The translations under genes and the position numbers were made by a program. DNA of 33,401 nucleotides from a virus, in IMG/VR virus record IMGVR_UViG_3300032286_000463, positions 1 through 33,401 of that record. One strand, written 5' to 3'. The notes below the pieces were generated by a model, which searched no databases, was not told the DNA's origin, and was given only the letters and a program-made list of their open reading frames with translations. Positions 18,897-33,252 of this stretch are shown here, piece after piece; the stretch's first letter is position 1, and each line of letters starts with the position of its first letter.

Positions 18897-18937
18897 TAAA
18901 ATATCTTAATAATATTTAAAATAAGGGAGATAATGAA

Positions 18938-19888: not shown

Positions 19889-19890
19889 TA

Positions 19891-20586
19891 ATGCAAAATA
19901 AAAAAATTTGTATTATAAACATTGCAACCAACAAATATATTAAATTTATAGAACCTCTTTGGGAATCTATTAATAATAATTTTTTAAAAGATTGTGTGGT
20001 AGAATCTTTATTATTTACAAACCATGACATAAAACCAATTACTAAAAATGGAAAAGTTTCTAAAATTGAGCATGAACCATTTCCTACACCAACATTAATG
20101 AGATATCATTATATTAATAGCGAATCGGATTATTTAAAACAATTTGATTATTGTTTTTACTTAGATGCAGATATGCTTATTGAAAGTAAAGTTGGTGAGG
20201 AGATTTTAGGAGATTTAGTAGCAATTATTCATCCAGGATTTTTTAACAAAAGCCCCAATGAATTTACTTATGAAAGAAATGAGGCTTCTTTAGCATATAT
20301 TCCTATCGATAATGGGAATAAGTATTATGCTGGAGGTTTTAATGGTGGTACACCAGAACAATTTTTAAAAATGTCTGAAACTATTTTAAAAAACATTGAC
20401 ATAGATAAAAAGAATGATATAATTGCTATATGGCATGATGAAAGTCATCTTAATCGTTATTTGTTGGATAATCCACCAACACTAGAACTTAATCCAGACT
20501 ATTGTTATCCAGAAAGTTGGAACATTCCATTTGAAAGAAAAATATTGGCACTAGATAAAAATCACGAGGAGGTAAGGTCTTTATGA
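19891..20586 (+). CDS. GT6 glycosyltransferase (ABO blood-group transferase family)
   Basis: A 231-residue retaining glycosyltransferase. It is strikingly like the catalytic domain of vertebrate ABO transferases: FYLDADM with DxD (Asp92, Asp94), HPGFF (114-118), FTYERNEASLAYIP, YYAGGFNGG (145-153), IWHDESHLNRYLL (catalytic-type Glu184) and the closing KNHEEVR. GT6 enzymes add GalNAc or Gal in alpha-1,3 linkage to Gal, often requiring an alpha-1,2-fucose, and a GT11 gene lies just upstream. The known bacterial GT6 enzymes I recall have NxN instead of DxD; this one keeps DxD, suggesting metal dependence. A GT6 has been noted before in a cyanophage. Confidence 0.92.
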   Translation: MQNKKICIINIATNKYIKFIEPLWESINNNFLKDCVVESLLFTNHDIKPITKNGKVSKIEHEPFPTPTLMRYHYINSESDYLKQFDYCFYLDADMLIESKVGEEILGDLVAIIHPGFFNKSPNEFTYERNEASLAYIPIDNGNKYYAGGFNGGTPEQFLKMSETILKNIDIDKKNDIIAIWHDESHLNRYLLDNPPTLELNPDYCYPESWNIPFERKILALDKNHEEVRSL

Positions 20587-20753
20587 AAAAAAATATTATA
20601 TGGGGGCAGCCATATTTAAATTTAAAAAAAGATTATTCAAATGCAACGGAACAAAAGATTAGGTTAGCAATGAATTACATAAAAGAAAATCATACTTATA
20701 TAAATAGAGTTAAATCTTTATTTATTGTTTTAGGAGAAAATAATGAAAATTAA
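20583..20753 (+). pseudogene. Internally deleted remnant of the 18938 glycosyltransferase
   Basis: A 56-codon ORF. Its start MKKNIIWGQP matches the N-terminus (KKKFVIWGHP) and its end MNYIKENHTYINRV matches the C-terminus of the 18938 enzyme, while some 260 central codons are missing. The DNA shares a 32-base identical block. This is a decayed duplicate. It overlaps both neighbours and may now only couple translation. Confidence 0.8.
20679..20710 (+). repeat. 32-bp direct repeat, copy 2
   Basis: Second copy of the repeat at 19823-19854, 856 bp downstream, in the remnant gene. A substrate for recombination that would delete the GT6 gene. Confidence 0.9.
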
Positions 20754-21540
20754 TTTTATAACAACGGTAGTAAATAGACCCAAATTTGTTGAAATACAAT
20801 ATTTATTATTTAAAAAATATTGCACTATAGATTTTGATTTTTATGTTATAGATGATTCACATAATAATAATTTGTCAATTGAATTTTACGATATTTGTAA
20901 TAAATACAATATTAATTATATCAAAAAAGAAAGTGTTAATCAAAAATTTACTAATCCAGGAATGAATAATAATCCAAATGATGACTGTGCCCATGCTGTG
21001 CAATGGACATACGACAATATTATTTTTAAAAATATGAAAGATGATTACGTTTTATTTTTAGATTCGGATATGTTTTTGATTGATTATTTTAATCCGATAG
21101 AATACCTAGAAGATTATGTTATGTGTGGATTAGAACAAATTAGGGAAACAGAAAATAAAAATAAATTAGTTGATTATATTTGGAATGGCATAATGTTTTT
21201 TAATATGAAAAAAATGTTAGAAATTAATGATTATCCAGATTTTTGGTGTGGAACAGTTTATGATATTCCTGTAGACGTTGGTGGGCAGTTGCACTTTTTC
21301 ATTAAAAATAATAATTTAAATTGGAAAAAAACTGACGTTTTGTATCCAGAAAAAATATTTAATTATGATGTAAAAGATATAATTGCTAATTTTGAATTTC
21401 ATTGCAATAAAAAATTCTTGCATTTTCATGCTGGAACAAATTGGCATTTAGATTGGAAAAATAAAAAAGATTTAGATTTTAAAAAAGCAGAAGTTTTTGA
21501 AAAAATAATTAATCAATATTTAGGGCATAATGAAAATTAA
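20743..21540 (+). CDS. GT-A glycosyltransferase
   Basis: A 265-residue protein with an N-terminal nucleotide-binding strand MKINFITTVVNRP, a DxD-type motif VLFLDSDMFLID near residue 110, and a C-terminal LHFHAGTNWHLDW where His/Asp residues could coordinate metal or the acceptor. GT2-like in layout; linkage and donor unknown. AGGAG lies upstream. It is very AT-rich and overlaps the next gene by eleven bases. Confidence 0.75.
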   Translation: MKINFITTVVNRPKFVEIQYLLFKKYCTIDFDFYVIDDSHNNNLSIEFYDICNKYNINYIKKESVNQKFTNPGMNNNPNDDCAHAVQWTYDNIIFKNMKDDYVLFLDSDMFLIDYFNPIEYLEDYVMCGLEQIRETENKNKLVDYIWNGIMFFNMKKMLEINDYPDFWCGTVYDIPVDVGGQLHFFIKNNNLNWKKTDVLYPEKIFNYDVKDIIANFEFHCNKKFLHFHAGTNWHLDWKNKKDLDFKKAEVFEKIINQYLGHNEN

Positions 21541-22201
21541 TTTATTAGATATTCCAGTATATTATATTTCTTTAGAAGACCAATATGAAACACATACAAG
21601 AATGAACAATATGTTAACTGAACTTGGTTTTAAAAATATTATAAAGTTTATTGTTCAAAAACATCCAAGTGGCAAAATTGTTGGTTGTGCAGACTCTCAT
21701 GCTCAAATATTTGAAATGAATCCTGAGACTCCTTTCATTATTTTAGAGGATGATTGTTTTTTGAATACAAACTTTGTAGCAGAAATAGACATACCAGACG
21801 ATGCTGATGCTCTATATTTGGGAGTTTCAAGATGGGCACGGTATTGCAATCTTTCTGGAGACTATCTTCATGCAAAACAAAAAGATAAGAACCTGTATCA
21901 GGTCTATAATATGCTGGCTACTCACGCTATCCTATACATCAATAAGGAATATATAAGTAATTGTAAAAGAATAGCAAGATGGTCTGCAAACAAAAATCAA
22001 CATTTAGATATTGGTTTTGCCGAAAGCCATAAATTCTATAATGTTTATTCATTTGATAAACCATTGTTTTATCAAGAAAGTAGCAGAGAGATTACTAATA
22101 AAAACATTAGTAGTTTTAATGGTCATAATGATGCTGCATATCATGGAATTAATGTTTTTTTAAATCAGATGACTGGGTTTTTTCCGCTACCTTTGATGTG
22201 A
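21530..22201 (+). CDS. GT25-like glycosyltransferase
   Basis: A 223-residue protein. VYYISLEDQYETHTRMNNML, KIVGCADSHAQIF and PFIILEDDCFLN follow the pattern of GT25 (LPS/LOS galactosyltransferase and collagen transferase) enzymes: an opening SL..R, the GC..SH block and the E-D-D metal site. GT25 enzymes commonly use UDP-galactose, which the downstream GalE could provide. AT-rich like its neighbours. Confidence 0.75.
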   Translation: MKINLLDIPVYYISLEDQYETHTRMNNMLTELGFKNIIKFIVQKHPSGKIVGCADSHAQIFEMNPETPFIILEDDCFLNTNFVAEIDIPDDADALYLGVSRWARYCNLSGDYLHAKQKDKNLYQVYNMLATHAILYINKEYISNCKRIARWSANKNQHLDIGFAESHKFYNVYSFDKPLFYQESSREITNKNISSFNGHNDAAYHGINVFLNQMTGFFPLPLM

Positions 22202-22207
22202 TATACT
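22199..22207 (+). promoter_or_regulatory. Extended -10 promoter
   Basis: TGATATACT (TGn plus TATACT) directly after the GT25-like gene. The start would be near 22214, 18 bases before the next gene. Confidence 0.45.
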
Positions 22208-22231
22208 TAAAATATAGAGAAAGAATAAGTT

Positions 22232-22924
22232 ATGAAAATTGGGTTAATTATTCCATGGAGAGAGCAACCATCTAGGATAAAAGCCTTTAAAAAGGTCTGT
22301 GAGTGGTACCAGGACAACCTTCCAGAAGCAAAAGTCTATCTTGTAGATAATGGCAATGAAACCTGGGAAATGTCTGCAACAAGAAATCTGGGGGTACGTT
22401 TAGCAGAACAAGACAACTGCGATGTTATTATAATCAATGATGCAGATACAATTCCACAGATAGGTCCGTTGAGAGAGGCTATTAATGATGCTTTTAAAGA
22501 CAATATGATTCATAATCCTTATACTATTTATACCCTTTTTGATAAATCTGAAACTGAATTACATTTAGAAAAAGGTGTTCCTTTAAATAAATTAAAATGT
22601 AGTGTTTTTGCAGATGTTGCCTGTTCTGGAACAATAGTTTTTACACCAAAGGCTTGGTGGGATTTAGGGGGTAATGATGAGAAGTTTATTAAATGGGGAT
22701 ACGAAGATACAGCACAAAATTTAGTTCATTTTGTTATTCATGGAACTAAAATTGTTAAACATACTGGAACTGTGTTTGCCTTTTCACATGAAGTCCAGGA
22801 TAGGTTAGAAAAACCTAGTGAGCAGTTGCTTAAGAATAGAAGTCTTTATAAAAGATATCTTGCTGTTTCAAAGGGTATGAATCCTAAAGAAAATATATTA
22901 GCATTAGTGAAATCAAAAGAATGA
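22232..22924 (+). CDS. GT-A glycosyltransferase (galactosyltransferase-like C-terminus)
   Basis: A 230-residue protein. LIIPWREQPSRIKAF opens the nucleotide fold, VIIINDADTIP carries DxD, and GGNDEKFIKWGYEDTAQNL is the Glu-Asp acceptor/catalytic block seen in galactosyl- and polypeptide GalNAc-transferase-type GT-A enzymes. The composition is less AT-rich than the preceding transferases. It overlaps the next gene (ATGA). Donor possibly UDP-Gal or UDP-GalNAc, by inference from GalE. Confidence 0.78.
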   Translation: MKIGLIIPWREQPSRIKAFKKVCEWYQDNLPEAKVYLVDNGNETWEMSATRNLGVRLAEQDNCDVIIINDADTIPQIGPLREAINDAFKDNMIHNPYTIYTLFDKSETELHLEKGVPLNKLKCSVFADVACSGTIVFTPKAWWDLGGNDEKFIKWGYEDTAQNLVHFVIHGTKIVKHTGTVFAFSHEVQDRLEKPSEQLLKNRSLYKRYLAVSKGMNPKENILALVKSKE

Positions 22925-23867: not shown

Positions 23868-24049
23868 TAGAACCAACCTTTTCCTTCTTCATCTAAATCT
23901 TGCAATGTTTTAATTAATTTATCAGTCTTTCTAACACCATATCCCATCTGGATAATGTCAAGACCAGACACCTCTACCTCATCACCATCGTCTAATTTAA
24001 CGACATAGGTGCGGTCAGGGTCAATGATAAATCGTATTTTATGTGGCAT
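23867..24049 (-). CDS. Hypothetical protein
   Basis: A 60-residue protein if started at 24049 (MPHKIRFIIDPDRTYVV); a further in-frame ATG at 24064 lies before the -10 box and is less likely. Strand-rich first half (RTYVVKLDDGDEVEVSG), helical second half. A TGCTACAAT box (24063-24055) ends five bases before the ATG, so the message is probably leaderless or nearly so. Confidence 0.6.
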   Translation of the reverse strand: MPHKIRFIIDPDRTYVVKLDDGDEVEVSGLDIIQMGYGVRKTDKLIKTLQDLDEEGKGWF

Positions 24050-24054
24050 ACTTA

Positions 24055-24063
24055 ATTGTAGCA
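24055..24063 (-). promoter_or_regulatory. Minus-strand extended -10 for the 23202-24049 operon
   Basis: Reads TGCTACAAT on the minus strand and would start transcription at or next to the ATG at 24049. It is divergent to the promoter at 24098-24126. Confidence 0.5.
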
Positions 24064-24094
24064 TAAGTTCGGTCGAAAATAAAGAGGCAAAATA

Positions 24095-24126
24095 CGCTTG
24101 ACAAGCAAGCGATTATCCTGTACAAT
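24095..24126 (+). promoter_or_regulatory. Promoter with operator-like palindrome at the -35
   Basis: TTGACA (24098-24103), 17 bases, TACAAT (24121-24126). An inverted repeat CGCTTG (24095-24100) / CAAGCG (24106-24111) overlaps the -35 box. Confidence 0.72.
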
Positions 24127-24159
24127 TAATGTATAAGGTCCATTAAACGATAGGAACGT

Positions 24160-24660
24160 ATGCAAACCTTTTTACCATTTAAGCAGTTCGATAAGTCTGC
24201 ACAAGCCCTAGATAATAAGAGATTAAATAAGCAAGTATTAGAGTGTTACCAGATTCTTAAGGTGTTGTCTAATGATGACCCACATGCTGCTTGGCGTAAT
24301 CATCCTGCTGTTAAGATGTGGCGTAACCATGAGGGACAGTTATGGCTGTACACTATGGCTATGGTTAAAGAAGCAGATATCCGTGGCATTAAGACTGATA
24401 AGAACGTTAGCAATCTTAATGAACTTAAGGCTGTGGCTGGGGATAGTTGGGGGTATTCAATTACTCCGTGGTCTAAAGACCCTTTCGTAATGTCTAGACT
24501 AACTACTAGCCATAAGGCTAACCTGTATACTAAAGACCCTGTGTATTATTTTGAGTTCTTTAGTGCTTTGGCTACATCTAATCCTTGTTGTCCTGAGCGT
24601 AAAGAACCTTGTAAGTACTACTGGGTTGCACATGACACACAGTTTAAGGTGGCTGCATAA
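24160..24660 (+). CDS. MSMEG_6728-like protein (pyrimidine dimer glycosylase-like family)
   Basis: A 166-residue protein. MQTFLPFKQFDKSAQALDNK, RLNKQVLECYQILKVL, WRNHPAVKMWRNHEGQLWLY and the C-terminal CCPERKEPCKYYW match a small family annotated MSMEG_6728 and sometimes related to pyrimidine dimer DNA glycosylase. A role in DNA repair is suggested by that annotation but not established from sequence. It has its own promoter. The coding strand here is T/G-rich, unlike the A-rich genes to the left. Confidence 0.7.
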   Translation: MQTFLPFKQFDKSAQALDNKRLNKQVLECYQILKVLSNDDPHAAWRNHPAVKMWRNHEGQLWLYTMAMVKEADIRGIKTDKNVSNLNELKAVAGDSWGYSITPWSKDPFVMSRLTTSHKANLYTKDPVYYFEFFSALATSNPCCPERKEPCKYYWVAHDTQFKVAA

Positions 24661-25559
24661 TGAATATTCTTGTTACTGGTGCGGCTGGGTATGTTGGTTC
24701 TCATATTGTTAGGTTGTTGGAAGACACGGAGCATAAGGTAATACTAACTGATTATAGGTTGGACGGTATTGATTTAGCCAATGACTATTTAGATTTAAAA
24801 TCATTGTTTATGAATAATGATATAGATGTTGTTATCCATACTGCCGCTAAAAAGGCGGTAGGTGAATCTGTAGACAATCCAGAGTACTATTATGAACAAA
24901 ACATACAAGGTATGAATAACCTATTGAAAGTTATGAAAGAATATAATGTTAAGAAGATTATTTTTTCATCTTCTGCTGCTGTCTATGGTGTGCAGGGTTC
25001 TGGTATAATTAAAGAAGATAGTGTTTGTGAGCCTATCAATCCTTATGGGGAGACAAAACTTATTAATGAGTGGATGCTATCTAATGGTGCTTCTTGGGGA
25101 TTACAGGCGATTAGTCTGAGATTCTTTAATGTTGCTGGGGCAGGTTGGGAAGACCTAAAAGATACTGGTAATGCTAACTTAATTCCTATTATAGAATCTA
25201 ATTTGGCTAATGGTGTTGCTACAAAGGTTTTTGGCACAGATTATGACACGCCTGATGGTTCTTGTGTTAGGGATTATGTTCATGTTTTAGATGTTGCTAA
25301 TGCACATCTGTTGGCTTTGGATGGCTTTAAAAATGGTCATCAAGTCTTTAATGTGGGTACAGGTAAAGGCTATAGCGTTCTAGAGATATTAAATGCTTTA
25401 AACGCAGATTATGAGGTTGTCCCAAGAAGACTTGGAGACCCATCTAGTTTGTTTGCAGATGTAGGTAAGATTAAGGATACTTTGGGGTGGGAGTCTAAAT
25501 ACACTCTCGAAGATATATTGAACGTAGGAAAGATAAATGAAACTATTAAAGATATTTAA
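24660..25559 (+). CDS. galE: UDP-glucose 4-epimerase
   Basis: A 299-residue SDR epimerase interconverting UDP-Glc/UDP-Gal and possibly the GlcNAc/GalNAc pair. Motifs: TGAAGYVGSH for NAD, HTAAKKAVGESV, SSSAAVYG, Tyr-x3-Lys in NPYGETKLINEW, and RFFNVAGA. It is about 40 residues shorter than E. coli GalE, with trimmed loops but a complete active site. It starts on the previous stop. Donor supply for the GT6, GT25-like and other transferases upstream is the likely purpose. Confidence 0.92.
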   Translation: MNILVTGAAGYVGSHIVRLLEDTEHKVILTDYRLDGIDLANDYLDLKSLFMNNDIDVVIHTAAKKAVGESVDNPEYYYEQNIQGMNNLLKVMKEYNVKKIIFSSSAAVYGVQGSGIIKEDSVCEPINPYGETKLINEWMLSNGASWGLQAISLRFFNVAGAGWEDLKDTGNANLIPIIESNLANGVATKVFGTDYDTPDGSCVRDYVHVLDVANAHLLALDGFKNGHQVFNVGTGKGYSVLEILNALNADYEVVPRRLGDPSSLFADVGKIKDTLGWESKYTLEDILNVGKINETIKDI

Positions 25560-25776
25560 GTGGCGATTACGCCTTGTTCAGCAAGGATATGACCTTGGCT
25601 GGGAGCATGGCTATGAAGCAGGTATGATTGAGCAGAAGAACCAGATTGTGGATAAGGTTGATAAGTTTGTCAAAGATGTTGATTGGCTTAAAGAAGAACC
25701 TTATACTCGTAAAGATATTGTTGAAGCAATCAAGAACCATGAACCAGAGAAGGAGTTAGTGGGATGGGCAGACTAA
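25537..25776 (+). CDS. Small GYxxG-type protein, paralogue 2
   Basis: A 79-residue protein overlapping the end of galE by 23 bases. YDLGWEHGYEAGMIEQKNQI has the same aromatic-Gly spacing as the 12447 product. The remainder is charged and helical. Function unknown. Confidence 0.65.
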   Translation: MKLLKIFKWRLRLVQQGYDLGWEHGYEAGMIEQKNQIVDKVDKFVKDVDWLKEEPYTRKDIVEAIKNHEPEKELVGWAD

Positions 25777-26018
25777 AAGATATAGATTCAGAGATGCATG
25801 AGTTACCTGATTCAGTTAAAGAGACTCAGGAACAATTGGATAGCACTAAGAAGATGAGGGCATTTGTTATTGGCTTTGAGATAGGTCAGGAAGCAGAGAG
25901 AGACCATATCGTTAAACTGTTAAGCAGGATAGCAGATGAGTATCTTGAAGACAAGATGCTACTTGCCTCATCAATTATTCATAACGCTATTGCTTCTATC
26001 AAAAATTCGGGGGAATAA
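25764..26018 (+). CDS. Small GFxxG-type protein, paralogue 3
   Basis: An 84-residue helical protein. FVIGFEIGQEAERDHIVKLL continues the Gly/aromatic helical pattern of the preceding gene, which it overlaps by 13 bases. The C-terminus DKMLLASSIIHNAIASIKN resembles in position the end of the 12447 product. Function unknown. Confidence 0.62.
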   Translation: MGRLKDIDSEMHELPDSVKETQEQLDSTKKMRAFVIGFEIGQEAERDHIVKLLSRIADEYLEDKMLLASSIIHNAIASIKNSGE

Positions 26019-26040
26019 AAGAAGCCTTCATAATCCCTAG

Positions 26041-26046
26041 TATAAA
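26041..26046 (+). promoter_or_regulatory. Candidate -10 box before the 26072 gene
   Basis: TATAAA within ATCCCTAGTATAAAATACA, a sequence closely repeated at 26708-26729 in the origin region. No clear -35. Confidence 0.4.
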
Positions 26047-26071
26047 ATACACCTAGTAGAAAGAATAACCT

Positions 26072-26293
26072 ATGAAAAGAATACACACCTATAGACATCA
26101 AGTACTTGGTAAAGGACCTATCAGACAATCTCCTATCAAGATAAGAATATGGTTTTGGGGATTTGCTTTAGGCTATCTCACAAACAAACACATGGGTGGA
26201 TTAGTCTTGACAGCCAAGAAAACACCACATCCAACAAGACCAATTGCTGATAGTTATACACAGAAATACCCTCGAAAAACACATAAAAAATAA
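26072..26293 (+). CDS. Small basic protein
   Basis: A 73-residue protein rich in Lys, Arg, His and Pro with one short hydrophobic segment (IWFWGFALGYL, about 26-36). A weak AGAAAG ribosome binding site. No family recognised. It is the last plus-strand gene before the origin-like interval. Confidence 0.5.
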   Translation: MKRIHTYRHQVLGKGPIRQSPIKIRIWFWGFALGYLTNKHMGGLVLTAKKTPHPTRPIADSYTQKYPRKTHKK

Positions 26294-26319
26294 AGTTATT
26301 GGCTACGCCATAGTTGATT

Positions 26320-26360
26320 TTATCAACATATCCACAGGGTTATACACATAGTTATCCACA
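26320..26360 (+). promoter_or_regulatory. DnaA-box cluster
   Basis: Four same-orientation nonamers near the TTATCCACA consensus: TTATCAACA (26320), ATATCCACA (26328), TTATACACA (26340) and a perfect TTATCCACA (26352). The last three start 12 bases apart. Confidence 0.75.
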
Positions 26361-26589
26361 GATAAATCTTACTGTATATCTTTGATAGCATAGTGGAGGG
26401 AAATGGAGAGATGTGGTATGGGTAATTGTACATCATATATCTTAAACTTAATAAACATCCACAAATCCCCTAGCCCCATATCCCCAAATACCCCTATCAT
26501 ATTTATGCCAATTTGTCAAGTGTTTTTATCAAATTGTTATAAAAAACATATCAAATATTAAATAAATAGATATAAAAATATCATATTTT

Positions 26590-26615
26590 GGGGAAAATAA
26601 ATAGCCCTTCGTAAT
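26590..26615 (+). repeat. Bipartite GGGGAAA-N11-TTCGTAAT motif, copy 1
   Basis: GGGGAAA 26590-26596 and TTCGTAAT 26608-26615. It lies just downstream of the minus promoter at 26630-26635. Confidence 0.75.
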
Positions 26616-26629
26616 GTCCTGTGTTATAT

Positions 26630-26635
26630 ATTATA
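26630..26635 (-). promoter_or_regulatory. Minus-strand -10 box in the origin region
   Basis: TATAAT on the minus strand, preceded by TATCCCTAG and an ATGTCTCTG element resembling the ATGTCAGnGGT promoters. It would transcribe leftward across the AT-rich stretch; no gene is there. Confidence 0.45.
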
Positions 26636-26737
26636 CTAGGGATATCAGAGACATTCTCCTCTACCCTGGCTCTGCCAGCCCCTTCGGGGTATATAAAAGA
26701 TAAGCCTTATCCCTAGTATAGTAAATACATATACCTC

Positions 26738-26766
26738 TTGACAAATAGGGGAAAGTATGCTATGTT
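26738..26766 (+). promoter_or_regulatory. Plus-strand promoter in the origin region
   Basis: TTGACA (26738-26743), 17 bases, TGC-TATGTT (-10 at 26761-26766). It reads through the iterons into a minus-strand gene, so any product is non-coding. Confidence 0.55.
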
Positions 26767-26772
26767 CGTAAT
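26748..26772 (+). repeat. Bipartite GGGGAAA-N10-TTCGTAAT motif, copy 2
   Basis: GGGGAAA 26748-26754 and TTCGTAAT 26765-26772. It brackets the -10 of the plus promoter. Confidence 0.75.
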
Positions 26773-26796
26773 GTCTGTTTATTCTAATTTGTATAA

Positions 26797-26866
26797 TGTA
26801 ACCTAAAAGTTACAAAACAAAATGTAACCTAAAAGTTACAAAACAAAATGTAACCTAAAAGTTACA
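26797..26866. repeat. Three palindromic iterons, 26-bp period
   Basis: TGTAACCTAAAAGTTACA at 26797-26814, 26823-26840 and 26849-26866, all identical, separated by AAACAAAA. Each is an inverted repeat TGTAAC/GTTACA with a six-base centre. Confidence 0.92.
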
Positions 26867-26872
26867 TATTTT

Positions 26873-26898
26873 GGGGAAAAATATTATACCATCGTAAT
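26873..26898 (+). repeat. Bipartite GGGGAAA-N11-ATCGTAAT motif, copy 3
   Basis: GGGGAAA 26873-26879 and ATCGTAAT 26891-26898. It encloses the -10 of the perfect minus promoter. Confidence 0.7.
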
Positions 26899-26911
26899 AC
26901 CTTTTTGTCAA
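26883..26911 (-). promoter_or_regulatory. Perfect-consensus leftward promoter
   Basis: On the minus strand TTGACA (26911-26906), 17 bases, TATAAT (26888-26883), with TGG completing an extended -10. Transcription from about 26876 passes through the three iterons toward the DnaA boxes with no coding gene. Confidence 0.85.
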
Positions 26912-26955
26912 TAGTTGGATTATAACAATTTGGTAACTTTGGTCGGCACAAGATA

Positions 26956-26975
26956 GCCCCCATGTCAATAGGGGC
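26956..26975 (-). terminator. Hairpin after the 26982 gene
   Basis: GCCCC (26956-26960) / GGGGC (26971-26975). The following minus-strand sequence is only moderately T-rich, so termination may be weak. GGTCGGCACA (26941-26950) follows it. Confidence 0.5.
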
Positions 26976-26981
26976 ATCCTG

Positions 26982-27251
26982 TTATTCTTCTTCTGGTAAG
27001 TCTAGTAAAGCATTTAGACTATCAAAGCCAGTGTCTTCCTGCTCTAGCCCAGATAGCAATAAAGCAAATGTTTCTTCAATAAACTTATTTGTGTTCTCAT
27101 TTGCTACAACAATCTCGTTGTCTAAGGCATAAGCCAAAGGCAATCCTAAATCGTTGTATTCAAAAAAGTCTGCGAATGTTTCGTCATTGCTGTATGTAAT
27201 CCATAGGTCAGCAAGTATCTCTACTTTTTTACTGAATGTTGTTTCTGCCAT
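26982..27251 (-). CDS. Acidic hypothetical protein
   Basis: An 89-residue helical, acidic protein starting MAETTFSKKVEILADLW. The start at 27251 has an AGAAAGAGAAAAG leader and lies below the ATGTCAG-type promoter at 27301-27323; the longer in-frame ORF to 27323 is rejected because it would begin at that promoter. No domain recognised. Confidence 0.65.
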   Translation of the reverse strand: MAETTFSKKVEILADLWITYSNDETFADFFEYNDLGLPLAYALDNEIVVANENTNKFIEETFALLLSGLEQEDTGFDSLNALLDLPEEE

Positions 27252-27432
27252 TTTGCTTTTCTCTTTCTTCTTCTGCTGTTTCACTGATGATTGTAAATCT
27301 ATTATACAAGACACCCCTGACATTGTAGGCTATGTAATACCCCACCATTTCTAAATCTAGTGTGATGTCTGCTAATTTATCTAGGATTATCTTTGCTAAC
27401 TTTTCTTCTTTCGTGATTATTCGTCTACGCAT
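27229..27432 (-). CDS. Hypothetical helical protein
   Basis: A 67-residue protein starting MRRRIITKEEKLAKIILDKL. Helical with a charged Glu-rich end (SETAEEEREKQ). Its own terminator-adjacent promoter (TGGTATAAT, 27465-27457) and an AGAGAAATA leader support it. Its 3' part contains the promoter for the next gene and overlaps that gene by 23 bases. Confidence 0.55.
   Translation of the reverse strand: MRRRIITKEEKLAKIILDKLADITLDLEMVGYYIAYNVRGVLYNRFTIISETAEEEREKQNGRNNIQ
27301..27323 (-). promoter_or_regulatory. ATGTCAG-class promoter
   Basis: Minus strand ATGTCAG (27323-27317), ten bases, TATAAT (27306-27301). Same layout as 30354-30376 and 33253-33275. No TTGACA-like -35. Confidence 0.7.
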
Positions 27433-27456
27433 TATTTCTCTATTCTCTTATGCTCT

Positions 27457-27465
27457 ATTATACCA
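27457..27465 (-). promoter_or_regulatory. Extended -10 promoter
   Basis: TGGTATAAT on the minus strand, immediately after the terminator at 27474-27509; leads to the gene starting at 27432. Confidence 0.65.
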
Positions 27466-27473
27466 AAAATTGT

Positions 27474-27509
27474 GGGGAAGCACAAGTAGCAATTTACCTA
27501 TGCTTCCCC
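27474..27509 (-). terminator. Rho-independent terminator
   Basis: GGGGAAGC (27474-27481) / GCTTCCCC (27502-27509), a perfect 8-bp stem, followed on the minus strand by ACAATTTTT. Confidence 0.78.
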
Positions 27510-27529
27510 TGGTTGACCAGACACAGAAA

Positions 27530-27557
27530 CCCCTAACTGCTCTAGTCGTTAGTAGGG
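27530..27557 (-). terminator. Weak hairpin after the 27565 gene
   Basis: CCCCTAAC (27530-27537) pairs imperfectly with GTTAGTAGGG (27548-27557). On the minus strand it is followed by GTTTCTG. Together with the next hairpin it separates two transcription units. Confidence 0.4.
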
Positions 27558-27564
27558 AGTGTTC

Positions 27565-27942
27565 TCAACCCACTAAGTTATGTAAGTCACTAATAGTCTT
27601 AACATTGTGTAGGCTATCTTGTGATTCGATGTTTATGCTGTAAGGGTCAGGTAGGTCGTTCAGCCAGTCGTTGATGTCCTTGCTAATCTCCAGAGCGTAT
27701 AGTTCGTCCCTAAAGTCCCACCAGTCCATACCGTATTCTAGTTCCTTACGATGCTCACGAATCATTGCAGTCTCCACTACCCCACATTCATACAGGATGC
27801 CTGTGTATACCTTGACTACATTGTCTTCATCTAATACATATATAGCAGGATTAAGAGTGATTGTATCTGACCACTGATTGATGCCATGCTCATCATGTCC
27901 TAAATCTCTAAACCAAACATTTATATCCCAATACTTTGTCAT
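27565..27942 (-). CDS. Hypothetical protein
   Basis: A 125-residue acidic protein. The first 70 residues alternate strands (YWDINVWFRDLG, NPAIYVLDEDNVVKVYTGI), followed by helices. No family recognised. It is the last gene of a chain of four overlapping minus-strand genes. Confidence 0.65.
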   Translation of the reverse strand: MTKYWDINVWFRDLGHDEHGINQWSDTITLNPAIYVLDEDNVVKVYTGILYECGVVETAMIREHRKELEYGMDWWDFRDELYALEISKDINDWLNDLPDPYSINIESQDSLHNVKTISDLHNLVG

Positions 27943-28097
27943 ACTATTCGTTGCTCCAGTTCTTCTAGTGTAGGTCCCTTGAATCTATCAGTATACCGCA
28001 TCTGCTTCGAAATGTCAAGCACATACTCAATAGCAGACTGCCATCCAGTTTCCCATGCTTTTTCTAATAGTTCATCTATGTTAGTATTATCTTCCAT
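27939..28097 (-). CDS. Small helical protein
   Basis: A 52-residue protein starting MEDNTNIDELLEKAWETGWQ at 28097, on the stop of the gene above (TAATG). The longer in-frame start inside that gene is rejected. The sequence AWETGWQSAIEYVLDI is reminiscent of the Gly/aromatic helices of the small paralogues at 12447 and 25537. Confidence 0.6.
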   Translation of the reverse strand: MEDNTNIDELLEKAWETGWQSAIEYVLDISKQMRYTDRFKGPTLEELEQRIV

Positions 28098-28459
28098 TAG
28101 TCCATGCTCCATTCTGTATATACACCATCGCCACCACATTCAGGGCAGTCGGGGTTACCTTCGCCTTCGTCATCCATACATTCGCACTCAACGAACTTGC
28201 ACACAGTTACGAAAGGGTCTTCGTCATCTGTCCACGGTATCTCAGTGATGTAGTATTGAATACGATTAGCCAGATGATATCCAGCCACAATGTAAACACC
28301 TTCGTCACCATCTAACTCAGTCCATACGGTAGAGTGTGGCTGTAAACAAACATAGTCTAGTTCTTCACCATAGGTCTCAAAGGCATAGCCATCGTTAGTT
28401 ATCTTGTTCTTGATAGGTCTATACTTTGTACGCCATTCGCTTTCAGTTATCTCATTCAT
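28097..28459 (-). CDS. Conserved phage protein with C-terminal zinc ribbon
   Basis: A 120-residue protein. The body contains FETYGEELDYV, STVWTELDGDEGVYIVAGYH and ANRIQYYITE, a pattern seen in phage proteins of unknown function. The end has Cys-rich ECECMDDEGEGNPDCPECGG, a zinc-ribbon-like segment. It overlaps both neighbours. Confidence 0.7.
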   Translation of the reverse strand: MNEITESEWRTKYRPIKNKITNDGYAFETYGEELDYVCLQPHSTVWTELDGDEGVYIVAGYHLANRIQYYITEIPWTDDEDPFVTVCKFVECECMDDEGEGNPDCPECGGDGVYTEWSMD

Positions 28460-28601
28460 CGTCTACCACCGTTGCTAGTAGAAGTTGGTTTATATAACTA
28501 TACACATCATCTGCCATAGGGTGTGGTATGTTGCCAACCATATCCATAATCTCATAGAGTTCATCTACAAGGCTTTCAGGTTTTGCTAGTATTTTTATCA
28601 T
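28452..28601 (-). CDS. Small hypothetical protein
   Basis: A 49-residue ORF starting MIKILAKPESLVDELYEIMD at 28601, with AGAGAAAG upstream in the leader type shared by this arm. It overlaps the next gene by eight bases (ATGAATGA). Mostly helical, acidic. Function unknown. Confidence 0.6.
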   Translation of the reverse strand: MIKILAKPESLVDELYEIMDMVGNIPHPMADDVYSYINQLLLATVVDDE

Positions 28602-28615
28602 AGGGTTTCTTTCTC

Positions 28616-29164
28616 TTAGAAGTGGAAATCTACTGGTACTAAACAGTATACACTACGATACTGCTTGTTGTCAATACCCAGTTTTTTTCTTAGGTAGGAA
28701 GTCTTTACTGTGCAGTCGCTAGTGTCAAAGAACCCACTGTCGTAGTTCCAGTAGCCACGCATAATCTTCAATGCACTTGACAGGCTAGGAATGTTAGATT
28801 CGTAAATCTCACCAAAATCAAGGGTATCTCCATTAGAATACTTAGTCATAATGGTATTGATAGTAGGGAAGTCAAACTCAGCAAAGTATTTGTTGAACTC
28901 ATCTAACTGTTGCTTATCTACATTATCTAATGCTTCTAAGAATGAACAGGCATTGTCATCATTGTAGATAAGGACAGGAACATCTTCCCACCTGCCACCA
29001 ACTGCATGCCAGTCAGACCAGCCACCAATGAAGCCATTGCCATCTGATTCGTGAAGCAGCCATTCACCTACTTCTTCCTTTGCTATGGCTGTAATTTCTT
29101 CGTCTGTATATTCTTCATCTAATTCAAGTTCTAATTCTGTTGCTAGGTATTGCATAGTATGCAT
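28616..29164 (-). CDS. Phage protein with DWHAVGGRW motif
   Basis: A 182-residue acidic protein. The centre SDWHAVGGRWEDV matches a Gly-Gly-Arg-Trp motif recurring in uncharacterised phage proteins; the C-terminal half contains MRGYWNYDSGFF and YRSVYCLVPVDFHF. The start has AGAGAAAGAG and its own promoter (29195-29223). It has been described in other phages only as hypothetical, as far as I know. Confidence 0.7.
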   Translation of the reverse strand: MHTMQYLATELELELDEEYTDEEITAIAKEEVGEWLLHESDGNGFIGGWSDWHAVGGRWEDVPVLIYNDDNACSFLEALDNVDKQQLDEFNKYFAEFDFPTINTIMTKYSNGDTLDFGEIYESNIPSLSSALKIMRGYWNYDSGFFDTSDCTVKTSYLRKKLGIDNKQYRSVYCLVPVDFHF

Positions 29165-29194
29165 GGGTTTACTCTTTCTCTAGGTTATATATCT

Positions 29195-29223
29195 ATGATA
29201 CAGGATAGGGTTCGTAAATACAA
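29195..29223 (-). promoter_or_regulatory. Promoter of the 28616-29164 gene
   Basis: Minus strand TTGTAT (29223-29218), 17 bases, TATCAT (29200-29195). Confidence 0.6.
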
Positions 29224-29230
29224 GCATTTC

Positions 29231-29255
29231 GGGGAAAAAGTTATCACTTCGTAAT
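29231..29255 (+). repeat. Bipartite GGGGAAA-N10-TTCGTAAT motif, copy 4
   Basis: GGGGAAA 29231-29237 and TTCGTAAT 29248-29255, just upstream of the minus promoter at 29195-29223. A further lone TTCGTAA lies at 29211. Confidence 0.75.
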
Positions 29256-29290
29256 CATTAGGCATGTCTAATAAAATTATTATGTAAAGT

Positions 29291-29335
29291 TGTCGGCACA
29301 AAACCAGGGCAGTCAGATTGCTCCAACCACCCTGG
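29291..29335 (-). terminator. Terminator followed by TCGGCA motif
   Basis: CCAGGG (29304-29309) / CCCTGG (29330-29335), then TTTTGTGCCGACA on the minus strand. Inside the loop, GGGCA/TGCTC gives a second small hairpin similar to the conserved 3' hairpins. Confidence 0.72.
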
Positions 29336-29348
29336 TCCCCTATTATCC

Positions 29349-29528
29349 CTATATGTCAGCCAAAACTGCTTTAGCATGTGAAACAAAGTTATCAAACTCT
29401 TCGTCTCGTGTTAGTCTCATCTCTATTAGTTTCAATACTTCTAGAGTAGGCATTTGATTTATACTCCTGACTTTTTTGAAGCCATCAATCATAGACAGGA
29501 CGATTTCTTTATCAGTCATCTCAGACAT
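29349..29528 (-). CDS. Small helical protein
   Basis: A 59-residue protein starting MSEMTDKEIVLSMIDGF at 29528, eight bases after GGAG. The in-frame ATG at 29543 inside the preceding gene is rejected. Helical, no recognised domain. Confidence 0.62.
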   Translation of the reverse strand: MSEMTDKEIVLSMIDGFKKVRSINQMPTLEVLKLIEMRLTRDEEFDNFVSHAKAVLADI

Positions 29529-29793
29529 TATGGAACTCCACACTAATCATATCTGTCAGGTCATTATACTTGACAGAATTATAAATGATTTCTGCTAATT
29601 TTTTGATTGCTGAACGCTCTAGTTCTTCGTCAGTTCTCTTCAAATCTTCGTAGTCTTCTTCGGTTCCGTCTTCAGTATCAAAGTCTTCTACTTCACTGAT
29701 AAAGATGTTATCTTTATTGACATCAATCATGTATGTAATTGTTGCTGAAACCATTCTCTTAGTTTCGTAGTGTTCGTCAGTTAGTTCAAGCAT
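29521..29793 (-). CDS. Acidic hypothetical protein
   Basis: A 90-residue protein starting MLELTDEHYETKRMVSATI at 29793, after GGAGAAG; a longer start at 29832 lies within the gene above. A run of Asp/Glu (residues about 38-60) separates a strand-rich front from a helical end. Very acidic proteins of this sort sometimes mimic DNA, but nothing proves it here. Confidence 0.62.
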   Translation of the reverse strand: MLELTDEHYETKRMVSATITYMIDVNKDNIFISEVEDFDTEDGTEEDYEDLKRTDEELERSAIKKLAEIIYNSVKYNDLTDMISVEFHNV

Positions 29794-30136
29794 ACTTCTT
29801 CTCCTGCTTCTCCCAGTATTCATCCTGAGCAATCATACTATCCAAATCGCTAATGCGACCTTCAATACAAGCAATAGCAAATCTGCTCAATGCTTTAGTG
29901 TGTAGTTCGTGTTCTAGCATTGCTAGTTCTTCTCTGTGTTGCTCCAACATAGTTTTTTCCAAGTCTTCTTCTTTCTCTTTATACATAGTTAGATAAATGT
30001 TTGCTTGTTCTGCTTCCCATTCATCGTGGGTAGGGCAGTAATCTTGATTACCTTCGCAAATGCGACAGAATGAGTGGCAGTCAAAACCGCCATCGTGGAC
30101 AGGGCATTCAACCTTATCGCATTCACACTCACTCAT
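29786..30136 (-). CDS. Cys/His-rich N-terminus plus coiled-coil protein
   Basis: A 116-residue protein. The first 37 residues have eight cysteines and three histidines (CECDKVECPVHDG, CHSFCRICEG, YCPTHDE), likely two zinc sites. A long charged helix KEKEEDLEKTMLEQHREELA follows, giving a zinc-finger-plus-coil layout. It overlaps both neighbours. Confidence 0.68.
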   Translation of the reverse strand: MSECECDKVECPVHDGGFDCHSFCRICEGNQDYCPTHDEWEAEQANIYLTMYKEKEEDLEKTMLEQHREELAMLEHELHTKALSRFAIACIEGRISDLDSMIAQDEYWEKQEKKYA

Positions 30137-30320
30137 CTTCTTCGTCTTCTTCTTCGTCTTCTTCCAGTTCTTCTACTCTAATGTCTTCAACGCTGTCGTA
30201 TTCAAGGGTAGCGTTATCGCCATAGTAAGAGTGCCAAGCCATTTCTTCCGCTTGTTCTTCGCTATCTGCGACAATCTCTCCACAGTAGTTTACTTGGATT
30301 TCTACATAGTATTTTGGCAT
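30129..30320 (-). CDS. DpnD/PcfM-like small protein with acidic tail
   Basis: A 63-residue protein. YYVEIQVNYCGEIVADSEEQ followed by AEEMAW fits the DpnD/PcfM-like fold (strand, turn, helix). The tail is an uninterrupted run of Glu/Asp. It is the first gene of the 29521-30320 unit behind an ATGTCAG-class promoter, with AGAGAAAG as ribosome binding site. Confidence 0.65.
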   Translation of the reverse strand: MPKYYVEIQVNYCGEIVADSEEQAEEMAWHSYYGDNATLEYDSVEDIRVEELEEDEEEDEEDE

Positions 30321-30353
30321 TTGTTATCTTTCTCTTAGGGTTGTTATGTATTT

Positions 30354-30376
30354 ATTATAGGGGATACCACTGACAT
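30354..30376 (-). promoter_or_regulatory. ATGTCAG-class promoter
   Basis: Minus strand ATGTCAG (30376-30370), ten bases, TATAAT (30359-30354). The ATGTCAG begins at the upstream stop codon (TAATGTCAG). Confidence 0.72.
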
Positions 30377-30684
30377 TAGAACATCTGTGATGCTTGCTCT
30401 AACATCTCATCTTCTAGGATTTGATGATTATACTTGATAAGGCTATCAGTCTTCTCATTGTAGATACCCCTAATCATCTTTAGGAATGACTGGAACTCTG
30501 GACCACTGGTATCGTGCCAACCACGCTGGGCACTGTCCCATAGTTGCTTCTCTAGGCTTTCCAATCCCCACACGATAAACTGTAATCTTTGGTAAGATTG
30601 TAGGTCGCTTGCGTCAGGGTAGATGTAAGGGGCATTGTCTTCATCATAAACAGGGGTAAGGATAATAGTTTCGTTTTCATTCAT
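30376..30684 (-). CDS. Hypothetical protein
   Basis: A 102-residue protein starting MNENETIILTPVYDEDNAPY. Central helices (LQFIVWGLESLEKQLWDSAQ, EFQSFLKMIRGIYNE). No family recognised. The ATG lies at the expected +1 of its promoter, with no ribosome binding site, so translation is probably leaderless. Confidence 0.65.
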   Translation of the reverse strand: MNENETIILTPVYDEDNAPYIYPDASDLQSYQRLQFIVWGLESLEKQLWDSAQRGWHDTSGPEFQSFLKMIRGIYNEKTDSLIKYNHQILEDEMLEQASQMF

Positions 30685-30690
30685 AAGTCA

Positions 30691-30719
30691 ATTATACAGA
30701 TGTAGCACAGGATAGTCAA
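30691..30719 (-). promoter_or_regulatory. Promoter giving a leaderless mRNA
   Basis: Minus strand TTGACT (30719-30714), 17 bases, TATAAT (30696-30691), then six bases and the ATG at 30684. Confidence 0.78.
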
Positions 30720-30726
30720 TAGATTT

Positions 30727-30751
30727 GGGGAAAGCGTTACCCTTTCGTAAT
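30727..30751 (+). repeat. Bipartite GGGGAAA-N10-TTCGTAAT motif, copy 5
   Basis: GGGGAAA 30727-30733 and TTCGTAAT 30744-30751, upstream of the promoter at 30691-30719. Confidence 0.75.
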
Positions 30752-30819
30752 CGAAATAAATGATTAACTAGTTAGAAATTGCCGACCCAAATTCCCCACT
30801 TTTGTCAAGTAGGAAATGG

Positions 30820-30842
30820 TGAGCAGTTTGAAATCTTGCTCA
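30820..30842 (-). repeat. Conserved 3' hairpin, copy 1
   Basis: TGAGCA / TGCTCA with an 11-base loop, 12 bases after the stop of the DUF932 gene. Same family as 32056-32078 and 32599-32621, with paired stem substitutions. Confidence 0.78.
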
Positions 30843-30853
30843 GGATTGTTTTG

Positions 30854-31867
30854 CTATACGGAAGCCAAGACCAAGTTCATTAGTCTATTCTTCTCAGCGT
30901 TGATTACAGGGTCAAAGCCAGAAGCAGAAGCGTAAATACTTTCGTTGTTAGTTCCACGAGCATTACGATACCAGTCTAGGCGTTCTGTTAGAGCATTCAA
31001 AGCACCCCAAGCAGTTCCAGAGATAGTGTTATTGTAATCGCCAACATAGATAGATTGAATTAGGTCAATCTTGTCTGTCCACTTTTTCATAGAACCCTTG
31101 CTGTCCTTAGTTGGCATAGGGTAAGCCTTGAGAACAATCTCATCAAACTTAGCCTGAGTGATTTCTTTGCTAATCATTTCCTTAGCAAGTAAATCAAACT
31201 CGTCTAGGTAGTGATTAGCCAAGCCCAACGCTTCACGAGCAACAGCAATTTTACCTTCTGCTGTTTGTGTGTGTCTAATCTTGAATGACTGCTTCAAACC
31301 CTTTTTACCTTTTAGAGAAGATAGAGCAAGGTTTAGAGTGTTAGCACATACAACACGAACAGGAGTGATAGAAGCCTGAATTGCGATAGAACCATCGTGA
31401 GATGTGTTTAGCAATAGATAAGACTTGACAACATCAGACACGCCATTAGGGTCAAGAACAGTCTCACGCTCTAAAGCGATTGAACCAAAAACTTGTCTGC
31501 CACCCTTGATTGAACCAGCAGTTTCCCAACGCCCACCACCATCAAGCAGATTATCGCCAAACGAGAACAAGTCTTCATTCTGTAATGGAACATAACGCTC
31601 ACCAACGACACCAAGAATGTCTGTCTGCTCTGCGTTGAATGGATTGGTGCGAGATACGAACGAGTAGTTTCTGTCGCTAGTGAAACCAGCAGGAACAGCA
31701 ACATCTTCAAGTCTGACATTCCAGTTGTCTAGGCTTGCGAGTGATAGCATTTCTGCGGTAGATACTTCTTCCTGAAACACAGTTCCAAGATTGTGCCAAG
31801 CAGGTTGGCGGAGTGAAGCAAAACTAGCCTGACCAGTTGCTTCGTTGATTTCTAATTCGTGAGCCAT
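30854..31867 (-). CDS. DUF932 phage/plasmid-like protein
   Basis: A 337-residue protein starting MAHELEINEATGQASF at 31867, with AAAGGTG nine bases upstream; in-frame starts further up lie in the leader. Family blocks include RQPAWHNLG, FVSRTNPFNAEQTDILGVVGERYVPLQN, a GGRQVFGSIAL strand, ITPVRVVCANTLNLAL and the C-terminal WGALNALTERLDWYRNARG. DUF932 proteins are frequent in phages and plasmids; their role is unknown, and links to DNA metabolism rest on genome context. It has a strong promoter (31908-31936) and a 3' hairpin. Confidence 0.9.
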   Translation of the reverse strand: MAHELEINEATGQASFASLRQPAWHNLGTVFQEEVSTAEMLSLASLDNWNVRLEDVAVPAGFTSDRNYSFVSRTNPFNAEQTDILGVVGERYVPLQNEDLFSFGDNLLDGGGRWETAGSIKGGRQVFGSIALERETVLDPNGVSDVVKSYLLLNTSHDGSIAIQASITPVRVVCANTLNLALSSLKGKKGLKQSFKIRHTQTAEGKIAVAREALGLANHYLDEFDLLAKEMISKEITQAKFDEIVLKAYPMPTKDSKGSMKKWTDKIDLIQSIYVGDYNNTISGTAWGALNALTERLDWYRNARGTNNESIYASASGFDPVINAEKNRLMNLVLASV

Positions 31868-31907
31868 AGGGACTACACCTTTCATTGTTGGATTTGTTTG
31901 ATACTCA

Positions 31908-31936
31908 ATTGTCTCACGATTTGGGGGAAATGTCAA
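31908..31936 (-). promoter_or_regulatory. Promoter of the DUF932 gene
   Basis: Minus strand TTGACA (31936-31931), 17 bases, GACAAT (31913-31908). Confidence 0.72.
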
Positions 31937-31948
31937 GTGTTTCGTAAA
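31924..31948 (+). repeat. Bipartite GGGGAAA-N10-TTCGTAAA motif, copy 6
   Basis: GGGGAAA 31924-31930 and TTCGTAAA 31941-31948. The N10 is exactly the -35 region of the DUF932 promoter. Confidence 0.75.
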
Positions 31949-31984
31949 CTAATTTTACATTAGTTATCATTTCGTTACTTTTGC

Positions 31985-32054
31985 GGTCGGCACAAAAAAT
32001 CCCCCTGCTAATTTTACCTATCTAATTAGGATAGTCAATCTTCACAGGGGGATT
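31985..32054 (-). terminator. Strong terminator followed by TCGGCA motif
   Basis: AATCCCCCTG (31998-32007) / CAGGGGGATT (32045-32054), 10-bp stem, loop containing CTATC/GATAG, then six T and GTGCCGACC on the minus strand. Confidence 0.88.
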
Positions 32055-32055
32055 G

Positions 32056-32078
32056 TAAGCAGTTTAGACACTTGCTTA
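32056..32078 (-). repeat. Conserved 3' hairpin, copy 2
   Basis: TAAGCA / TGCTTA with loop GTTTAGACACT (plus strand), 12 bases after the stop of the 32090 gene. Confidence 0.8.
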
Positions 32079-32089
32079 GGTGTTTACTT

Positions 32090-32527
32090 TTACAGCAAAT
32101 CCAAAACGGAGTTGTATGTGCTGGAAGTAATGGTTTCTTGGTCAGTTAGTTTTAGAAGTTTTAGGGTCTTCTCCAACTGCTCTTTGTTTTGTCTGTTCTG
32201 CCAAGTGTCAGGGTCGCTAGGCTTCTCTGGCTTTGTGCCAATCTTAGCAACGATTTCCTTACCAACTGCGATAGAAACAGAACCACGATAATCGCTGTTG
32301 ATAGAGATGTTGTCTTCCTGATTGCCATAGTCGCTATAATCAACAATAGACTTTTTGTTTTTGCTAACCAAGTCAATTAGGTCTGCTGTGAAAGAAACAA
32401 TCTGCTTCTTGTATGCTGATAGCAACTTTGGATACTCTACTTCTGCCTTAGCAATTTCTGCTAACTTGGTTTCAACCATTTCAACTACTACTGATGTTGG
32501 GATTTTTACGGATACGGAACGAGCCAT
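32090..32527 (-). CDS. Conserved actinophage hypothetical protein
   Basis: A 145-residue protein starting MARSVSVKIPTSVVVEMVET. An N-terminal strand-helix is followed by a YPKLLSAYKKQIVSFTADLI helix, a Gly/Ser strand region (RGSVSIAVGKEIVAKIG) and PDTWQNRQNKEQLEKTLKLL. This opening and overall layout are familiar from conserved early genes of actinophages; the function is unknown. Leader AGAAAGTAG. Confidence 0.72.
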   Translation of the reverse strand: MARSVSVKIPTSVVVEMVETKLAEIAKAEVEYPKLLSAYKKQIVSFTADLIDLVSKNKKSIVDYSDYGNQEDNISINSDYRGSVSIAVGKEIVAKIGTKPEKPSDPDTWQNRQNKEQLEKTLKLLKLTDQETITSSTYNSVLDLL

Positions 32528-32569
32528 AATGTTTTGCTACTTTCTATTTGTGGGTTTATGTATAGTTCA

Positions 32570-32598
32570 ATTATACAGGATTTAGGGAAATTTGTAAA
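32570..32598 (-). promoter_or_regulatory. Promoter of the 32090 gene
   Basis: Minus strand TTTACA (32598-32593), 17 bases, TG-TATAAT (-10 at 32575-32570). It abuts the hairpin at 32599-32621. The spacer carries a degenerate TTTCCC half motif. Confidence 0.72.
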
Positions 32599-32621
32599 TG
32601 GGCAGTTTAGACATTTGCCCA
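32599..32621 (-). repeat. Conserved 3' hairpin, copy 3
   Basis: TGGGCA / TGCCCA with loop GTTTAGACATT (plus strand), 23 bases after the stop of the 32644 gene. It may also terminate that message. Confidence 0.8.
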
Positions 32622-32643
32622 GATGTTATAGTTCTGTTATGAA

Positions 32644-32802
32644 CTACTTGGCAGTTGTCCAGCGTGACTGACCAGCAACATCAAGTTTGATACGGAACGA
32701 GCCGTTTGCGTTCTTGATTACTTCCTGAACAGTGCCAACAACGCCAGACTTCTGGGTTGCGAACTGTGAGCCAACAGTTGGAACGGAAAATGTGTTTCCC
32801 AT
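32644..32802 (-). CDS. Small conserved protein (SH3-like)
   Basis: A 52-residue protein starting MGNTFSVPTVGSQFATQKSG. Strand-rich, ending SFRIKLDVAGQSRWTTAK. Likely a tiny beta-barrel. Leader AGAAAGAAGC; a promoter with a 5' hairpin lies upstream. Function unknown. Its codon use includes more C and G than most of its neighbours. Confidence 0.65.
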   Translation of the reverse strand: MGNTFSVPTVGSQFATQKSGVVGTVQEVIKNANGSFRIKLDVAGQSRWTTAK

Positions 32803-32828
32803 TTTTGCTTCTTTCTACTTGTAGTGTT

Positions 32829-32879
32829 TTACAACTTTTGTTGTAATACAAGTATAAGGGATAATCGTGGGAAAGTCAA
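32829..32879 (-). promoter_or_regulatory. Promoter with 5' hairpin for the 32644 gene
   Basis: Minus strand TTGACT (32879-32874), 17 bases, TATACT (32856-32851). TTACAAC-AAAA-GTTGTAA (32846-32829) begins near the predicted start. Confidence 0.78.
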
Positions 32880-32892
32880 GGGTATTCGTAAA
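32868..32892 (+). repeat. Bipartite (G/T)GGGAAA-N10-TTCGTAAA motif, copy 7
   Basis: TGGGAAA 32868-32874 and TTCGTAAA 32885-32892, over the -35 of the 32644 promoter. A second TTCGTAA is at 32898. Confidence 0.7.
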
Positions 32893-32927
32893 AGATTTCG
32901 TAAGCGTTATCATTCTGTTATTTTTGG

Positions 32928-32939
32928 GGTCGGCAAAAA
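32928..32939 (-). other. GGTCGGCAAAAA post-gene motif
   Basis: Fourth same-orientation copy of the GGTCGGCA(C)AAAA element (others at 26941, 29291, 31985), just after the stop of the 32947 gene. Confidence 0.6.
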
Positions 32940-32946
32940 CTAGAGC

Positions 32947-33126
32947 CTAAGCCCCAGCCTTATCCCATTCATACGCTTCGATAAAGTTCTTAGCAGTAAG
33001 CCAAGCACGATACATAAGTTCGTCTTCCTGACCTGTCAAGTCCCAACGCAATAGTCTTCCTATTGTGTGTGAGTTTCTTTCTTCTAAGTCTGCTAATACT
33101 ATTTCGTATGCTTTTTCTAGTTCCAT
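32947..33126 (-). CDS. Small hypothetical protein
   Basis: A 59-residue helical protein starting MELEKAYEIVLADLEERNSH. It contains LLRWDLTGQEDELMYRAWLT. It starts on the stop of the gene above (TAATG). No family recognised. Confidence 0.65.
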   Translation of the reverse strand: MELEKAYEIVLADLEERNSHTIGRLLRWDLTGQEDELMYRAWLTAKNFIEAYEWDKAGA

Positions 33127-33227
33127 TAGTACCCTGCTTCTTCTAGGATTTTTAGCAAGGCTTCTGCTTGCTCATCTGTTAGTTTTGCTATTGCTTCTTC
33201 GTTGATTACATTATCAAAGTTTATCAT
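33126..33227 (-). CDS. Very small helical protein
   Basis: A 33-residue ORF starting MINFDNVINEEAIAKLTDEQ and ending LEEAGY. AAAGGAAG lies eight bases before the ATG, and it is coupled to the next gene. It follows an ATGTCAG-class promoter. Confidence 0.6.
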   Translation of the reverse strand: MINFDNVINEEAIAKLTDEQAEALLKILEEAGY

Positions 33228-33252
33228 TAGGGCTTCCTTTCGTTAGAGTTCT

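Follow-up and report, generated by a model that had tools for sequence, protein, structure and literature searches.

The window analysed here (the whole 33.4 kb virus record) is a fragment, with genes that include a WhiB-type regulator, the large terminase (TerL) and DUF932. A DNA-level search returned no cultured-phage match to the window, and its relatedness to the Stanwilliamsviridae was gauged on two proteins. By TerL, the nearest cultured relatives were Streptomyces phages of this family (53-55% identical over 94-99%); the DUF932 protein was ~52% identical to that of cultured phages. The WhiB gene points to an actinobacterial host, and WhiB is also found in phages isolated on 'Ca. Nanopelagicales' (PMC10202952). 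Plus-strand genes to the left and minus-strand genes to the right of the gap at 26294-26981 both run inward, making the gap convergent. An earlier note on this DNA had the left-hand genes correctly running toward the gap and had those on the right running away from it; the latter also run toward it. The gap was described there as the only long gene-free stretch, but 32586-33401 is likewise without an ORF of at least 60 aa. That second stretch contains two TTCGTAA copies (32885 and 32897) and, on the minus strand at 32879, a promoter-like site.

A box search placed a host DnaA-box array at 26320-26360 (plus strand), with homologous arrays at 11-12 bp spacing in relatives. The four boxes, TTATCAACA (26320), ATATCCACA (26328), TTATACACA (26340) and TTATCCACA (26352), have at most one mismatch, lie on one strand and start within ~32-33 bp; those at 26328, 26340 and 26352 are 12 bp apart. 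Simulated windows (300 + 300 Markov simulations, 33.4 kb each) never contained four such boxes, the maximum being 2. The four same-orientation boxes with three at 12 bp spacing, as first described in the earlier note, were thus present and far above chance in 600 simulated windows, and the AT-rich stretch described with them was visible at about 26515-26590. From their sequence, binding of host DnaA to the array boxes is probable. An outlying box, TTATACACA (26254-26262, plus strand), lies within the ORF at 26072-26293, and similar outlying boxes were found in three relatives (L002, L004 and L006). In some relatives, extra DnaA-box pairs lie in intergenic early-gene DNA, 6-13 kb from the main array on its right side (G003:C1 21705-21725; G014:C1 71950-71969 and 77235-77255; L014:1948-1968).

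The left ends of the direct terminal repeats (DTRs) of five cultured Stanwilliamsviridae phages (NootNoot, Jay2Jay, Coruscant, Bmoc and Gilson) were compared by aligning the record starts to the right-hand repeat copy. All fell in the homologous gap, right after GTGTGTAAT[AGT] or, in Gilson, GAGGGTAATA, the sequences directly before the five repeat starts being GTGTGTAATA, GTGTGTAATG, GTGTGTAATA, GTGTGTAATT and GAGGGTAATA (Gilson). In each of the five, the virion genome began and ended with the same sequence, and the repeats of cultured relatives were ~11 kb long. The ends of NootNoot and Jay2Jay had been mapped through read starts and doubled coverage (PMC5764925), and that of Coruscant by PhageTerm (PMC7650747). 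In NootNoot the DTR left end falls in the homologous convergent gap beside DUF932, and the opposite-strand gene block with DUF932 lies inside the repeat; DUF932 occurs twice in NootNoot because the record holds both repeat copies.

The window carries TATGGGTAATT, including the GTAATN motif, at 26417-26427, the place matching the cultured-phage ends, and its repeat is therefore predicted to begin at 26428. On this homology the predicted end is at 26427/26428, with GGGTAATN up to the cut and, in the wider sequence, GGTATGGGTAATT before it and GTAC after it. Cleavage by terminase at 26427/26428 in the window phage is, judged from sequence, very likely, although the modest identity of its TerL to those of the cultured phages (53-55%) counts against it. 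The genome-end core begins with a conserved block, AATCTTACTG (26365-26374, plus strand); its TTACTG lies 8 bp beyond the end of the last DnaA box. An AT-rich segment and then a C-poor purine tract, TAGTGGAGGGAAATGGAGAGATGTGG, follow (26375-26419, plus strand), and the core closes with the cut motif GGGTAATT (26420-26427, plus strand), after which homology to the five cultured-phage ends puts the DTR left end. Toward the cut the order is AATCTTACTG, then GTGGAGnnAAGTGGAG, then GGGTAAT. From the cultured relatives, 26428-33401 is predicted to be the left part of the terminal repeat, the window being a fragment that stops before its predicted repeat does. The minus-strand gene block (26982-32527), of which the DUF932 gene (30854-31936, minus strand) is part, lies in this predicted repeat. 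A few contigs (L094, L131 and L143) end right after the cut site, a number too small to be of use, since a locus often stops where its contig does not.

Relatives were gathered with DUF932 as an independent bait, yielding 80 loci, of which 59 reach the gap. Many DUF932 loci had a box array of one orientation and 11-12 bp spacing a few kb from DUF932. The array together with the TTACTG core was found in 39 of the 59 gap-reaching loci (in L058 the match sits apart from its array). Over the DUF932 set, the core was accompanied by boxes in 42 relatives and had no box within 60 bp in 22. In 36 of the 42 box-bearing relatives, the end of the last box was exactly 8 bases ahead of TTACTG, a fixed register from which it follows that the boxes are placed relative to the core. 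The box-less relatives keep AATCTTACTG, the C-poor purine tract and a GTAAT-type motif. As the core is kept in these 22 relatives, it is most likely a packaging site, on sequence grounds, and not a DnaA or unwinding element.

The Stanwilliamsviridae (clusters BE1/BE2) resemble the window and its relatives in the convergent gap by DUF932, in the repeat end after GTGTGTAAT[AGT] and in having boxes near the end in five of seven phages (NootNoot, Jay2Jay, Bmoc, Paradiddles and Evy). Distances of the boxes from the repeat end, on its outer side, are 36-113 bp in NootNoot, Jay2Jay and Bmoc; Paradiddles and Evy also have boxes near the end. They differ in that the boxes of the freshwater relatives share one orientation and the 8-bp register with TTACTG, whereas those of the cultured phages are mixed. 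Coruscant and Gilson have the DTR end and no DnaA boxes; given this absence and the mixed orientation in cultured phages, cutting does not require the array. A pattern search for the element returned at least 120 stretches in viral contigs and 7 matches in 257 Gb of cellular genomes, the latter about the chance expectation for 18 fixed bases by our own estimate. A copied host origin was rejected, the element being not above chance in cellular genomes. Exactly one element was present in 15 of 22 large contigs, and two in none.

The gap had been proposed as a replication origin. In favour of that claim, the array is beyond chance and its position and register are conserved in 39 of 59 loci, but the core that surrounds it is best read as the left end of the repeat; that replication starts next to the terminal repeat in a DnaA-dependent way is plausible from the sequence, at somewhat below even chances. 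The strongest rival explanation is that the array belongs to a DnaA-dependent phage origin and that the packaging site lies beside it incidentally, which we consider a real contender that falls a little short of an even prospect. Tandem boxes of one orientation, with their 3' ends facing an AT-rich segment, match the layout of the unwinding region and R1 in E. coli oriC. TTATCCACA also serves at the origins of small actinobacterial genomes (1.2-1.5 Mb), some of which show a textbook box-trio arrangement. The phages have replisome genes and no initiator: DnaB-type helicase and Pol III alpha were found in 12 of 12 relatives and DnaA domain IV in none of the 12, and NootNoot encodes its own helicase, primase, SSB and DnaE. 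Relatives with boxes also had a slightly higher AT content after TTACTG (0.81) than box-less ones (0.72). Against this stands the conservation of the core in box-less relatives and of the repeat end in the box-less cultured phages Coruscant and Gilson, and convergent genes would face outgoing forks head-on.

Likeness to the basal unwinding system of bacterial oriC (B. subtilis; L253-L255) lies in TTATCCACA boxes set in tandem and oriented toward an AT-rich segment. A profile of 122 elements had T at +2, +5, +8 and +11, initially resembling the B. subtilis system. Beyond the last box, runs of 5'-NTN-3' (DnaA-trios) were, however, no longer in relatives with boxes than in those without (p 0.46), and the window has no trio-like triplets beyond TTACTG, both of which weigh against the origin. 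The phages differ from bacterial origins in having no (CTA)n trio run specific to box-bearers and in a core that persists without boxes. Unwinding through B. subtilis-like trios was rejected on the equal runs, on the block being kept in 22 box-less relatives and on the lack of further triplets in the window. Cumulative GC skew within the window had a maximum at the gap, not a minimum, and is confounded by the convergent genes; same-strand third-position GC skew weakly hinted at a cumulative maximum. Plus-strand genes tended to have positive skew to the left and negative skew to the right, a weak trend that also speaks against an origin. For Pseudomonas phage PseuGes_254, which has terminal repeats, Ori-Finder predicts an origin with DnaA boxes (PMC11512268); that case differs in being a prediction from a single phage.

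Alternatively, the boxes could be a datA-like decoy that takes up host DnaA in infected cells and so stalls the host's replication. In keeping with such a role, some relatives have several box clusters in one genome, and phage copy number would multiply these, but strong boxes number only a handful per genome and titration needs no fixed 8-bp register by the genome end, which makes a decoy improbable. Slightly less probable again is that array-bound DnaA blocks RNA polymerase, ending rightward late transcription and shielding the convergent gap. The array does come directly after the last plus-strand gene, in the convergent gap, and complexes of DnaA with its boxes stop transcription in E. coli; this block would nevertheless leave the TTACTG register and the extra box pairs elsewhere unexplained.

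The injection stop signal of phage T5 carries four DnaA boxes (PMC13250531), but that the main array here serves as a stop of this kind is very improbable: although the T5 boxes (9437-9518, inside the annotated signal) share the 12-bp spacing, and T5 and these phages both have terminal repeats of ~10-11 kb, the T5 boxes are within the repeat, towards its right end, T5 has none at the position equivalent to the main array, and the array here lies outside the repeat, beside its right-hand copy. The extra box pairs 6-13 kb rightward in some relatives could serve in this way, and by analogy these may play a T5-like role. Overall, T5 resembles the window's relatives in its ~10-kb direct terminal repeats and its 12-bp-spaced DnaA-box pairs in non-coding DNA, and differs in that its boxes are inside the repeat, near the right end, with none at the left boundary. 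A T5-type signal would place the box-bearing region within the repeat, by its inner end; the main array lies outside the repeat.

The reading that we favour, and hold to be more likely than not, is that a long DTR has its left boundary in the gap, with an array for host DnaA fixed just outside it. Its sequence-based parts are the box array, the conserved core, the 8-bp register and the homology to ends mapped by others. Terminase would recognise AATCTTACTG, the purine tract and GGGTAATT and cut replicated DNA at 26427/26428, and the minus-strand block from 26982 rightward would sit within the repeat. As the boxes are on the non-repeated side, each virion would have one main array, adjoining the repeat copy on the right. 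On binding there, host DnaA would most likely open or bend the DNA; phage helicase and polymerase might then be loaded next to the repeat, and loading there would perhaps help to copy the repeat ahead of cutting. That host DnaA is in this way built into the genome-end machinery, starting replication into the repeat or remodelling the site to let copying of the repeat precede the cut, is a tentative proposal that we regard as rather doubtful.

To our knowledge, how terminal repeats of ~10 kb are copied before packaging is an open question. If true, the reading of DnaA in register with the core would tie packaging to the host's replication starter, and an array 8 bp from a block that ends at the repeat boundary offers a testable link between the formation of genome ends and the start of replication. 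For a comparison, NootNoot and Jay2Jay are available as cultured Streptomyces phages with boxes, and Coruscant and Gilson as ones that lack them. The end motif provides a sequence rule for placing physical ends in hundreds of uncultured phage contigs. The parts are already known; on our best reading, the new element is their combination, in which a host-DnaA array sits in fixed register with a packaging terminus.

Further elements were found in the gap, to the right of the predicted end. Three identical TGTAAC-CTAAAA-GTTACA units start at 26797, 26823 and 26849 (26797-26866). The earlier note had called them identical 18-bp palindromes at a 26-bp period; the identity and the spacing held, and only the 6-bp arms are palindromic. 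TGTAAC-N6-GTTACA recurred as two units in L005, the sole such locus among ~200 relatives' loci. Their proposed role as iterons does not stand, the units being specific to the lineage of the window and L005 and not a conserved direct repeat; from their sequence they are probably an operator. TATAAT directly precedes the three-unit array. The several convergent promoters seen previously could not be told from background, 30 promoter-like sites being found in 24000-33401 against 28.5 +/- 5.7 in shuffled sequence. A perfect sigma-70-type match (TTGACA-17-TATAAT, 12/12; 26883-26911, minus strand) is directed leftward into the gap.

TCGTAAT occurs three times on the plus strand (26609-26615, 26766-26772 and 26892-26898). 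Over 111 gaps it was strongly strand-biased, with 446 plus and 2 minus copies, and often had GGGGAAAA and an A/T run before it; the NootNoot gap has five copies of the related TCGTAAA. It may belong to leftward early promoters or be bound by a phage regulator. A conserved hairpin pair, TACCCTGGCTCTGCCAGCCCCTTCGGGGTA (26662-26691, plus strand), of the form TACCC-TGGCnnnGCCA-...-GGGTA, lies just inside the predicted repeat. Its shape is conserved, with few paired changes and a weak covariation test; it might represent a small RNA or else a structure formed by the DNA. A minus-strand G-quadruplex at 26467-26494 was rejected, as it was present in only 3 of 116 gaps.

Two other regions of the window were noted. 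A tRNA-like Rfam match (42.7 bits) lies at 6440-6511, where ARAGORN makes no tRNA call, beside two tRNA genes that ARAGORN also finds. Sugar-nucleotide and glycosyltransferase-like genes, judged by eye, form a run at 14005-22924; GC content is ~26-27% over much of 15-22 kb, compared with ~37% in the surroundings, and the gene run looks recently acquired.
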